From positions 1-64,000 of the forward strand of contig JAOARU010000064.1 in NCBI GenBank assembly GCA_025210675.1: a DNA stretch of 64,000 nucleotides, written 5' to 3'. Every line of letters begins with the position of its first letter. Position 1 is the stretch's first letter. Source of the DNA: Candidatus Altimarinota bacterium. GTDB lineage: Bacteria; Patescibacteriota; Gracilibacteria; CAIRYL01; GCA-016699755. The notes beneath the pieces are model-generated. The model saw only the letters and a program-made list of their open reading frames with translations. It had not been told where the DNA came from and made no database searches. Both the position numbers and the translations under genes were made by a program. This document shows, one piece after another, positions 32,787-46,385 of this stretch.

Positions 32787-33963
32787 AAAACTTCTTCAAC
32801 AAACCATGCTCTTCTTTACGAAAAAACAATCCCATAAAAATAGCAAGGAGCATTAACCCCGTATAGATACTCCATAAAAAATGATCAAAAAGCCCAAAGA
32901 CAAAGAAAACCATAATCAAACTTCTTTGGGCTTTGTTTTTAATAAAAGCCAATACAAAAAACAAGAACATTACAACACCAGCCAAGACACCCACCTCAGC
33001 GCTTATTAATAAAAATAAACTGTGAACAGGTTGCATACTCCATGGCGCTATATCTTGCAAATACAAGATATAATTTCTAACACCTACTCCCCATGGATAA
33101 TCTCTAATTATAAAAAAAGCATCATCAAATCCACCCAATCGCTCAGTTAAAGAGTCTCCCAAAACAAGCCTCTCCATTAAAAGCTCACGAACAGGTGCAT
33201 AAATTAAAAAAAGCAAAATTAATAACAGTGCCCACAAAAAATCCTTTTTCTTAAATAAAAGCCCACAAAAAAGCGCCAAAATACCAGTCCTAGAAAAAGT
33301 CAGAACAATCGGAATAATCAATAAATACCTTAAATAAAACCACGGTTTTTTTATAAAATCTCCCAGAAAAAAACTCAAAACAAGAAAAAAGCTTAAAATA
33401 TTTGGATGCAAAAAAGTACCACTAGCCCTCAAATGATCTGCAAATTTAGGCATGCCCGCATCTATTGCGTTGAGTGACTGCTCCCTAACAAAACCAAGCC
33501 CCGCACTATGACCTATAATAAATTGCGTCACACCAAGCGCTCCCTGAAAAAGAGCTACACAAAACAATATCCAAGCAATATTTTTAAAAGGATATTTAGA
33601 ACTATATATAAAAACACCAGCCAAAAATGCCTCAAAAACTTTTAATGCACCAAGGAATGCTAATTTTTGCTCAACAGCAAAAATACTAGCCACCTCAAGA
33701 CTCAAAAAAAACCCAAGCAGTAAAAAAAGAAAACTTTTTTGGGTTGTTGTGTTTTTTTTAATAAAAGCAAAAAACAAAAAACTGAACCCTAAAAAAATCT
33801 CACTTATCTCAAAAAATATAGTTAAATACTCAGAAAAAAATCCCGTCATAAAGCTCATATCTCCATAAATAATCTTGCGAACTGGAAAGGTGCAAGTCAA
33901 TAAAAACAAGCTAAAAAACCAATATGAGATTTTTTCTGCCGAAATTAATTTTAATTTTTTCAC
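32779..33963 (-). CDS. O-antigen ligase-like (Wzy/WaaL) membrane protein
   Basis: This 394-residue polytopic protein has about 12 membrane helices and a large loop before the last ones. Family features are the helix with FSRTGILALFCGLLF, the loop with GDSLTERLGGFDDAFFIIRDYPWGVGVRNYI and QPVHSLFLLISAEVGVL. Such enzymes transfer or polymerise lipid-linked glycans on the outer membrane face; in a lineage without LPS it may act on S-layer or wall glycans (inference). It starts with GTG at 33963; no ATG lies nearby in frame. Confidence 0.8.
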   Translation of the reverse strand: MKKLKLISAEKISYWFFSLFLLTCTFPVRKIIYGDMSFMTGFFSEYLTIFFEISEIFLGFSFLFFAFIKKNTTTQKSFLFLLLGFFLSLEVASIFAVEQKLAFLGALKVFEAFLAGVFIYSSKYPFKNIAWILFCVALFQGALGVTQFIIGHSAGLGFVREQSLNAIDAGMPKFADHLRASGTFLHPNILSFFLVLSFFLGDFIKKPWFYLRYLLIIPIVLTFSRTGILALFCGLLFKKKDFLWALLLILLFLIYAPVRELLMERLVLGDSLTERLGGFDDAFFIIRDYPWGVGVRNYILYLQDIAPWSMQPVHSLFLLISAEVGVLAGVVMFLFFVLAFIKNKAQRSLIMVFFVFGLFDHFLWSIYTGLMLLAIFMGLFFRKEEHGLLKKFFI

Positions 33964-34034: not shown

Positions 34035-34616
34035 ATGAATAAAAAAATACTCTTTCTATTATCCTTTATCTTGTTTACACCGCTTTGTACCGCTGAATGT
34101 GTAGATCAAGATAAGGATCGCTTTTATGCTGATGATGGATTTGGGTGTGAAGAAGAAGATTTAGGACTTGGTTCAAAAGGCATGGAGGAACTTAGGTGTG
34201 ATTTTGCAACAATTGATGTAGAAGACCCTGAGCAGCCAGATGCCAACAAGGTCTATAATCCTGATATTGCTGGCAAAAAAACCATTAAAGGAAATACTAT
34301 TAATCCAAATCAAATCGAAAAAATGGACAACGGTATTGATGAAAACTGTGATAGCGAAGACGGTCAATTAGGCTTTGGAGGAGAAGACAAAGACCTAGGC
34401 AGCATGATTGATAAAATCGCTACTATCCTAGGCAACCTTGTAGGTGGAATCTCTGTAATAATTGTAATCTGGGGAGGAATCATGTTTGCAACTGCAGCAG
34501 GCGACGAAGAGCGTACAGCAAAAGCAAAAAAAGCAATTATAGGAGCATTGATTGGTGCTATTATTGGCTTCTTGGCTCCATTTATCGTAGGATATGTAAT
34601 TACAAATTTTGCATAA
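34035..34616 (+). CDS. MopE-like metal-binding motif fused to TrbC/VirB2-like membrane domain
   Basis: This 193-residue exported protein has a signal peptide (about 1-19). The segment starting CVDQDKDRFYADDGFGCEEED and ending NPNQIEKMDNGIDENCD matches the repeat called the putative metal-binding (MopE) motif: an Asp-rich loop, then a proline-flanked NGIDENCD. Four cysteines lie in this half. After it come two TM helices (about 122-145 and 165-190) around a charged loop GDEERTAKAKKA, as in TrbC/VirB2-type proteins. I infer a membrane subunit with an extracytoplasmic metal-binding head. I chose ATG 34035 because it begins a clean signal peptide. It ends at a terminator and is a single-gene unit. 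Confidence 0.7.
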   Translation: MNKKILFLLSFILFTPLCTAECVDQDKDRFYADDGFGCEEEDLGLGSKGMEELRCDFATIDVEDPEQPDANKVYNPDIAGKKTIKGNTINPNQIEKMDNGIDENCDSEDGQLGFGGEDKDLGSMIDKIATILGNLVGGISVIIVIWGGIMFATAAGDEERTAKAKKAIIGALIGAIIGFLAPFIVGYVITNFA

Positions 34617-34625
34617 TAGACATCT

Positions 34626-34657
34626 AAAAAAAGCCTCACAAACTTGTGAGGCTTTTT
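34626..34657 (+). terminator. Intrinsic terminator after the MopE/VirB2-like gene
   Basis: GCCTCACAA and TTGTGAGGC form a perfect 9-bp stem with a 2-nt centre (AC), with an A run before and five T after. It starts about 10 bp past the stop. Confidence 0.85.
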
Positions 34658-44229: not shown

Positions 44230-44610
44230 ATGAAAAAAATTAAAAATCTTCTTTCTTCACCACTTACTATTGCTATTTGTGTATTGTGCGTAGGTCTCTT
44301 GATGCCAGAAATCGTTTCTGCTGAATCAAGTCATCTTATTAGTGATAGTGTTCGCCCTGATGCTGCTGTAAGCTCTAGTTTTTCTGATGCAGTTCGTTCA
44401 TTTATTAATTATTTCCTTACATTTCTAGGCCTTATCGCTGTTGTGTTTGTGATTTACGCAGGTATATTAATGGTTACTGCTCAGGGTGATGATGATAAAA
44501 TCTCTAAAGGTAAAGATATTCTTATTTGGTCTGGTATTGGTATCGTATTAATCATGCTATCATACTCAATCGTAAGAATGATTATCGGAGCAGGTGACTC
44601 AGTTGCTTAA
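44230..44610 (+). CDS. TrbC/VirB2-like small membrane protein
   Basis: This 126-residue protein has a signal peptide (about 1-32), a short exported segment, and two TM helices (about 60-84 and 98-118) separated by a charged turn (GDDDKISKGKD). This is the TrbC/VirB2 pilin-like layout, frequent in CPR genomes where its function is unclear. It resembles the C-terminal half of the MopE-motif protein at 34035. No type IV secretion genes are nearby. Transcription begins at a near-consensus promoter and ends at a hairpin 24 bp past the stop. Confidence 0.75.
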   Translation: MKKIKNLLSSPLTIAICVLCVGLLMPEIVSAESSHLISDSVRPDAAVSSSFSDAVRSFINYFLTFLGLIAVVFVIYAGILMVTAQGDDDKISKGKDILIWSGIGIVLIMLSYSIVRMIIGAGDSVA

Positions 44611-45102: not shown

Positions 45103-45150
45103 AAAAATAAAATCTCACAAAATACTTGAAATGTCTATTGATTTTGTTAT

Positions 45151-45172
45151 TATATCAATATATATTGATATA
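45151..45172. promoter_or_regulatory. Perfect palindromic operator of the arsR-permease operon
   Basis: ATATCAATATATATTGATAT (45152-45171) is a perfect palindrome, extended by one matching base pair on each side. It ends 1 bp before the arsR ATG and overlaps the expected start of transcription from a weaker promoter (TTGAAA at 45126, TTATAT-like -10 near 45150). ArsR/SmtB repressors bind such AT-rich dyads at their own promoters, so autorepression relieved by metal is likely. Confidence 0.7.
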
Positions 45173-45173
45173 T

Positions 45174-45437
45174 ATGGAAATCATCTTAAAAGCACTAGCC
45201 GACAAAAATCGCTTAAAAATAATTAATTTTATTAAAGACAAGCCCAAATGTGTTTGTGAAATCTACCCATTTTTAGGGATTACTCAAAATTTAACATCAC
45301 ACCATTTATCAGCATTAAAAAATGCTAATCTTATAAAATCAGAAAAAAAAGGTCGTCATATATACTACAGTCTAAACAAAAAAACCTTCTACAATATTAG
45401 GAATTTTTTTGATAATTTTTTAATCAGTTTTTATTGA
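45174..45437 (+). CDS. ArsR/SmtB-family metal-responsive repressor
   Basis: This 87-residue winged-helix repressor has LKALADKNRLKIINFI, the Cys pair in KCVCEIYPFL (the ArsR-type ELCVCDL metal site), the recognition helix QNLTSHHLSALKNANLI and the wing KKGRHIYYSL. It would release its operator on binding arsenite, cadmium or a similar soft metal. I chose ATG 45174; the ATG at 45126 would place the operator inside the coding region. It starts 1 bp after the palindrome and precedes a permease by 3 bp, so the pair is one operon. Confidence 0.9.
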   Translation: MEIILKALADKNRLKIINFIKDKPKCVCEIYPFLGITQNLTSHHLSALKNANLIKSEKKGRHIYYSLNKKTFYNIRNFFDNFLISFY

Positions 45438-45440
45438 TAT

Positions 45441-46385
45441 ATGTTTTTTAAAATAGCACAATACATAAGCTTTGAATTACTTAATTTAGACCCAGAATCA
45501 AAATGGGCACATATGAGCTTGTTTTTCTTTGAAGATTCATTAAAAATTATTGCCTTAATACTAATAATGACCCATATTATGAGTCTTTTTAGGTATTATT
45601 TAAATATTACAAAAATTCGCAACTTCCTTCAAAAAAGAAATTTATATGGACTAGATTATTTTATCGCATCATTTTTTGGAGCTATTACGCCATTTTGCTC
45701 ATGCTCGTCATTACCTTTATTTATTGGCTTTGTTCAATCTGGAATACCACTTGGGATAGCATTTTCATTTTTAATAACATCACCCCTAATTAATGAAGTA
45801 GCTATCGGAGTATTTCTGGGTGCATTTGGCTTAAAAATGACCATGGTCTATGTAGGATTTGGTATATTAATAGGTGTTTTTGGGGGTTTTATATTAGGTA
45901 AAATGAACCTTGAAAATCACATAGAACCATTTGTAAAAGGTCAAGATTTTACAGAAAAAACAAATGAACCATTTCAAAATATACTCAAAAAAACATCAAA
46001 AGAAGCTCGTGGAATCTCTAAGAAAATAATTCCCTATATTCTACTTGGTGTGGGGCTTGGAGCCTTTATACATGGATTTGTACCAGACGGTTATTTTGAA
46101 AATATATTAAACAGGGCTGGTATTTGGGGTGTACCCATATCTGTAATCCTGGCTGTGCCACTATACTCAAATGCAAGTGGGACAATACCAATTATTCAAT
46201 CATTAGTTACAAAAGGTGTCCCTCTTGGTACCGCTATTGCTTTTATGATGGCCATTGTAGGAATTTCTCTACCCGAAGCTATTATCCTTAAAAAAGTAAT
46301 GAAAATTAAATTATTAGCTATATTTTTTGGAATAGTAACAATAGGAATAATTATTATTGGGTATTTATTAAATTGGTTATTTTAA
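45441..46385 (+). CDS. ArsP/SO_0444-type (COG0701) permease
   Basis: This 314-residue permease has about eight TM helices in two halves. It has the Cys motif TPFCSCSSLPLF (Cys86, Cys88), SFLITSPLINEVAIG, and the second-half SNASGTIPI with GISLPEAIIL. Relatives export organoarsenicals (ArsP) or copper/zinc (SO_0444-like). Being cotranscribed with a Cys-pair ArsR repressor supports soft-metal or arsenical efflux. The exact substrate is not determined by sequence. Confidence 0.88.
   Translation: MFFKIAQYISFELLNLDPESKWAHMSLFFFEDSLKIIALILIMTHIMSLFRYYLNITKIRNFLQKRNLYGLDYFIASFFGAITPFCSCSSLPLFIGFVQSGIPLGIAFSFLITSPLINEVAIGVFLGAFGLKMTMVYVGFGILIGVFGGFILGKMNLENHIEPFVKGQDFTEKTNEPFQNILKKTSKEARGISKKIIPYILLGVGLGAFIHGFVPDGYFENILNRAGIWGVPISVILAVPLYSNASGTIPIIQSLVTKGVPLGTAIAFMMAIVGISLPEAIILKKVMKIKLLAIFFGIVTIGIIIIGYLLNWLF

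Follow-up and report, generated by a model that had tools for sequence, protein, structure and literature searches.

The locus examined here raises the question of what a small pilin-type membrane protein does when it is built with an exported head rich in aspartate and cysteine. The role of many VirB2-like pilins of Patescibacteria is described as unexplained in the text of a 2025 survey (PMC12102498), which also reports, from a single experimental analysis, that type IV secretion system (T4SS) genes are essential for the epibiotic growth of these bacteria. In the 64,000-nucleotide stretch of DNA that we analysed (the window), the MopE-pilin gene, as we call it, lies on the + strand at 34035..34616 and encodes 193 amino acids plus a stop, as defined by ORF translation, Pfam matches and homologues. 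The mechanical ORF begins upstream, at 33924; we take the ATG at 34035 as the start because the homologues and the signal peptide favour it, and the coordinates 34035-34616 given in the preliminary description are correct. Residues 1-20 (MNKKILFLLSFILFTPLCTA; 34035..34094, + strand) read as a signal-peptide-like N-terminus with a hydrophobic centre at 13-15 and no good lipobox, its putative cleavage site being placed by reading the sequence. The Kyte-Doolittle hydrophobic centres of the protein are this one and two more at 134-148 and 173-184.

These last two centres belong to a T4SS_pilin domain (PF18895) at 34401..34598 (+ strand), whose two hydrophobic helices are seen in the Pfam match, the hydropathy profile and the AlphaFold helices, and whose intervening loop (about residues 156-166) is rich in lysine and arginine. 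The window protein passes the PF18895 cut-off of 26.6 comfortably (54.2 bits, E=1.6e-14) and stays below that of the TrbC/VirB2 model PF04956 (23.8 bits against 27.9, E=5.4e-5). Between signal peptide and hairpin lies the exported MopE-type head (residues 22-109; 34098..34361, + strand), with four cysteines at 22, 38, 55 and 105 and, in the 94-residue stretch examined, 25 Asp plus Glu residues. A DxDxD half-motif (residues 24-28; 34104..34118, + strand) stands near its beginning, and the three aspartates are invariant in a 10-row alignment. Its end, DNGIDENCDSED (residues 98-109; 34326..34361, + strand), is that of a PF11617-type motif according to Pfam and profile matches, and it contains the NGIDENCD (residues 99-106) in which the Asp/Cys-rich segment had been said to finish. 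The fusion of such a segment with a pilin-type membrane part of two transmembrane helices, as proposed in the preliminary description, is therefore real.

Is the head of MopE type? The window protein matches PF11617 (MopE) with 17.6 bits (E=0.0048) and does not reach the cut-off of 27, so the MopE reading rests on the homologue family. All ten homologues in alignment A1 match both PF18895 and PF11617 at E<=1, with a best PF11617 E-value of 9.6e-6. Moreover, a canonical-MopE-repeat profile, made from nine repeats of L068, an unrelated protein of the class that contains many of them, gives 12.5-23.9 bits to all 19 heads tested (G350 is left out, its head not having been extracted by the pattern), and every shuffled head scores lower (1900 made, 1813 scored; best 11.3 bits). 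The window head obtains 16.0 bits with this profile, compared with 2.3 bits for the best reversed head. When a nine-row head profile was run against all PDB sequences, MopE (2vov) came first at residues 24-50 with a weak E=0.0068, and the next match had E=1. The homologues share the motif order DxDxD ... CD ... P ... D.xCD, its cysteines and aspartates being conserved, and the variant in which the third cysteine is replaced (DNGIDENCDG; EIPNNGIDENCDG) is also found inside L068. These data bear out the MopE character first claimed for the head. Of the two outcomes named beforehand as refuting, neither occurred: PF18895 scores significantly, PF11617 is matched by the homologues, and the Asp/Cys segment is conserved among them. 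AlphaFold models of the window protein and one relative from three-row alignments give helices and no head fold (mean pLDDT 47.7 and 46.7).

The head is also conserved, which bears on what it may do. The aligned homologues show no variation at Asp 24, 26, 28 and 102 or at the pair Cys55/Cys105; the window's Cys38 is mis-aligned both in the 10-row alignment and in the 17-row conservation count, the latter omitting G341, G344 and G350. Four cysteines are kept in 18 of 19 heads and the remaining one has six. In six same-family pairs (G349/G350 omitted) the heads are 68-93% identical with dN of 0.04-0.26; four of them allow an estimate of head dS, which is 1.7-3.5 and gives dN/dS of about 0.04-0.15, and in the other two dS is saturated with dN of 0.04 and 0.13. 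The low ratios show purifying selection on the head. The window head itself has diverged, having CDS for CDG, Arg in place of the Gly at the sixth position of the DxDxDG loop, and no GNYSPEEW insert of the kind seen in the large family; this Gly is missing from the two nearest relatives, G001 and G002, as well. Its loss, together with the retention of the cysteines, would suit an adhesin or spacer that is disulphide-bonded and has Asp-rich loops that have ceased to bind metal. We regard this as unlikely, however, given the invariance of the four aspartates and of Cys55/Cys105 and the purifying selection on the head as a whole.

Which metal the head might hold is a separate matter, and the preliminary description had offered calcium or copper. 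Similarity to the secreted MopE speaks for a copper-binding, copper-acquiring domain, as does the weak Cu(II) binding for which residues near the N-terminus of MopE* are implicated in the published account (PMC3423442). The Cu(I) ligands of MopE described there, however, are His132, His203 and kynurenine-130 (oxidised Trp130), which lie away from the PF11617 motif and outside the matched residues 24-50. The window head has neither His nor Trp and so lacks the His/His/kynurenine site, and His is scarce in the other heads too (0-1 across 19 heads). Copper is thus disfavoured on sequence grounds as the head's metal, copper binding was rejected as the main reading, and a copper-acquiring head seems very improbable to us. 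The PF11617-like part corresponds to roughly the N-terminal 50 residues of MopE*, 46 of which are invisible in the crystal, and the same source describes MopE* as shielded from degradation by Ca2+ (PMC3423442). In addition, a conserved Ca2+ in CorA, a relative of MopE, is presumed in its description to stabilise the structure (PMC3912023), although that site is not equated with the PF11617 motif. By analogy, Ca2+ would be the natural guess for the head's metal; the missing Gly of DxDxDG in the window protein and its two nearest relatives counts against it.

Where the fusion occurs, it is as one copy per genome. Of the 353 class genomes, 20 carry it, namely the window's genome (G000), G001, G002, G018 and 16 of the 18 members of one family (f10). 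G000 and G001 are the sole two genomes seen of their family; the other six genomes seen of G002's family (G003-G008) are without the fusion. At E<=0.001 the head profile matches 24 of the 353 genomes, the additional four being weak matches to non-fusion proteins (L068-L071), in whose examined stretch no pilin domain was detected; its sensitivity for unlike heads is limited because all nine rows come from the 20 fusion genomes. A sampling of the phylum (379 genomes) yields matches only in G000, in G016 and, as a non-fusion match and the sole one outside the class, in G564. In the class to which G564 belongs, 13 of 380 genomes have weak matches, confined to the end portion of the head profile, in large frames of 372-1034 aa. 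Ten of these 13 were examined with a 16-head profile, the one also used for scanning gene order, and no pilin domain was found in the stretch covered; G870, G969, G1013 and a second match in G975 fall outside that check. No relative of the fusion was confirmed in viral contigs, and tblastn gave no match in plasmids and phages.

Where the fusion gene stands in an array, the gene order is conserved. The order in f10 is VirB6/TrbL, a tandem double pilin, a single pilin and, in last place, the MopE-pilin, and profile scans recover this cassette in 15 of 17 array-type loci (14 of the 16 in f10, and G018, whose genes were read with UGA as glycine). Both exceptions end at contig ends: G344, where the array begins about 130 bases from the contig end, retains double pilin, single pilin and MopE-pilin, and G348 retains single pilin and MopE-pilin. 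Some cassettes have an extra frame inside them, for example of 199 aa in G349 and of 533 aa in G342. The G018 genes (L079) are open only when UGA is read as glycine, with 22 in-frame TGA codons in the VirB6 gene and zero in the MopE-pilin gene. The headless single pilins at L076, L077 and L079, that of G018 included, have a small cysteine motif, C.DG...DP..GC, ahead of the hairpin.

Eight of nine cassette VirB6 members match PF04610 at E<=0.1 (best 1.5e-12), and two f10 partner proteins pass the cut-off of 25.9 with 27.4 and 29.3 bits; it is not reached by the VirB6 of G002 (17.8 bits), by that of G001 or by the fragments in the window's genome. There, PF04610 gives no match at E<=1, and the VirB6 subtype, lying in two pieces at the ends of contigs C4 and C31, is visible only to the profile built from the cassette proteins. 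The same survey describes VirB6 homologues as scarce in Microgenomatia and absent in Gracilibacteria, and suggests extreme divergence (PMC12102498). The class analysed here is probably Gracilibacteria or close kin of it, one of its members (G018) reading UGA as glycine. A nine-row profile of the subtype finds strong matches (E<=6.5e-18) in 18 of the 353 class genomes, the next genome following at 1.1e-9, and all 18 carry the fusion, including G000, G001 and G002, in which VirB6 is present and not adjacent. The fusion genomes that have no strong match are G344 and G348, both cut at contig ends. Among the fusion-less genomes of G002's family, G003-G006 have no match to the subtype and G007 and G008 a weak one over 46 residues. 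Hypergeometric probabilities for the co-occurrence are 2.6e-28 (genomes) and 7e-19 (genera), both overstated by kinship; since 16 of the 20 fusion genomes come from one family, the association amounts to few independent events, and at least 18 weak-match genomes outside the 20 (1.1e-9 to 0.001) are uncounted. Three of the nine cassette VirB6 proteins match DUF11 (PF01345), which suggests that the cassette VirB6 carries its own exported domain.

The arrangement in the window is a different one, and it supplies the case for treating the pilin-type hairpin as a mere membrane anchor that displays the head on the cell surface outside any secretion machine or pilus. The MopE-pilin gene is solo among other genes in G000, G001 and G002. 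Just past its stop in the window is a 13-bp hairpin with a U-rich 3' arm (34628..34657, + strand; -18.7 kcal/mol, z -7.26), which is probably an intrinsic terminator that closes a unit of this one gene; it is absent from the list of the consensus terminator scan, and the consensus promoter scan found no + strand promoter. The neighbours of the gene, named from sequence reading, are a gene for an O-antigen-ligase-like membrane protein on the opposite strand and a set of housekeeping genes downstream, among them tgt and a queuosine-transporter-like gene. An ArsR-like regulator and, after it, an ArsP-like permease, named in the same way, occupy 45126-46385 of the window. The anchor idea also draws on how freely the hairpin is used in this 0.98-Mb genome: a 1725-aa protein with PKD and collagen-like repeats bears a pilin-type domain, and PF18895 has 16 matches altogether (13 over the cut-off; contigs C12, C17, C25, C40, C48, C51, C53 and C58). 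Nevertheless, an anchor standing apart from the machine would be hard to reconcile with the strict pairing with one VirB6 subtype, non-adjacent genes included, or with the conserved gene order in the arrays, and we hold it to be a less likely alternative.

The 1725-aa exported protein of the window's genome (L096:2465-7642, contig C51) is a second case of a head borne by a pilin hairpin, with the hairpin near the N-terminus, followed by collagen-like matches and seven PKD matches; PF18895 scores 23.6 bits on the whole protein, below the cut-off, and 31.2 bits, over it, in another scan. Pilin-like matches are also present in frames of roughly 1640-1680 aa in G022, G031, G040, G048 and G055. Tandem pilin domains within one protein are encoded, for example, by two genes on C40 (287 and 306 aa, three domains each), and a pilin-like protein on C17 (L094:9353-9880) has a C-terminal cysteine-rich tail, CLAVGQVCTSDNDCCSGDC, its gene being one of three consecutive pilin genes. 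The pilin domains of the fusions form one clade (support 98/96) containing all 18 fusions (of the 20) that were entered in the tree, apart from the single pilins, the double pilins and all other entered pilin domains of the window's genome. This tree rests on 77 columns, is weak in the rest of its topology and omits G341 (cut domain) and G350; the clade was read from the printed tree because the tool's count of nine label changes was spoiled by eight double-entered fusion genes. The double pilin on C58 groups with that of G018 (support 93/90 for one domain and 99/82 for the other). A second VirB2-like protein without the head had been noted at 44230, and it is indeed there (44230..44610, + strand; 126 aa; PF18895 41 bits, no PF11617 match at E<=10). 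It belongs, however, to a different pilin subfamily, its nearest neighbour in the tree being the pilin domain of the 1725-aa PKD protein and not the fusion. The window's genome also encodes a VirB4-like ATPase at C29 (P-loop_TraG, PF19044, 87.8 bits).

We therefore favour the reading that the MopE-pilin is a dedicated VirB2-type subunit of a Patescibacteria type IV secretion machine, with a head of calcium type. This is probably correct, in our judgement from sequence, because the cassette order is fixed and the VirB6 subtype pairs with the fusion even when the genes are not adjacent. The protein would be exported by the Sec route and, after signal cleavage, would leave a hairpin in the membrane that keeps its basic loop on the inner side and exposes the head on the outer. 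The fold of the head would be fixed by two disulphides and by one or two Ca2+ bound at DxDxD and DNGIDENCD. The VirB6/VirB4 machine would then put the subunit in the pilin assembly, or at its tip or base, and the head, facing the surroundings, would probably serve host-cell contact or docking. That each genome has a single copy alongside headless pilins might hint at a specialised subunit, perhaps a minor or tip one, as opposed to bulk filament. More tentatively still, the module of VirB6, tandem pilin, pilin and MopE-pilin may be this class's specialised host-contact machine, with a headed pilin, stabilised or switched by calcium, capping or decorating a mixed VirB2-type assembly, and the VirB2 hairpin may be a wider chassis for heads (MopE, PKD/collagen, extra pilin units). 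Because its relatives keep it beside a secretion-machine gene, the MopE-pilin looks like a specialised part of the surface machine that these tiny host-dependent bacteria are thought to use. A handle on which pilin does what is now given by a named VirB6 subtype, a fixed cassette and a single pilin whose head is of metal-binding type.

No paper on the fusion was found in a search of the open-licence literature, and a term search of the main text of PMC12102498 returned no mention of MopE or metal. The MopE-pilins resemble the PF18895/VirB2-like pilins described there in being exported two-helix hairpins with multiple paralogues and arrays beside T4SS genes (the survey counts 441 arrays of 2-11 pilin genes), but differ in the MopE-type head of about 85-130 residues that precedes the hairpin. 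The Mbov_0395 family of pilin-like conjugal transfer proteins (NF045849) is similar in its hairpin (29.9 bits, E=3.2e-7); the window protein nevertheless falls below the cut-off of 40, and the 80-residue model has no head. The canonical multi-repeat MopE-motif proteins of the class, such as L068, share the motif, the variant with the third cysteine replaced included, but have many repeats and, as far as the examined stretch goes, no pilin domain. MopE of Methylococcus capsulatus (2vov), finally, is a secreted protein with the same order of Asp/Cys motifs (DxDGDG...DC...HPGA.E...DGVDSNCDG), whereas in the MopE-pilins the copper domain is absent, the motif is split by inserts, and the head is joined to a membrane hairpin.
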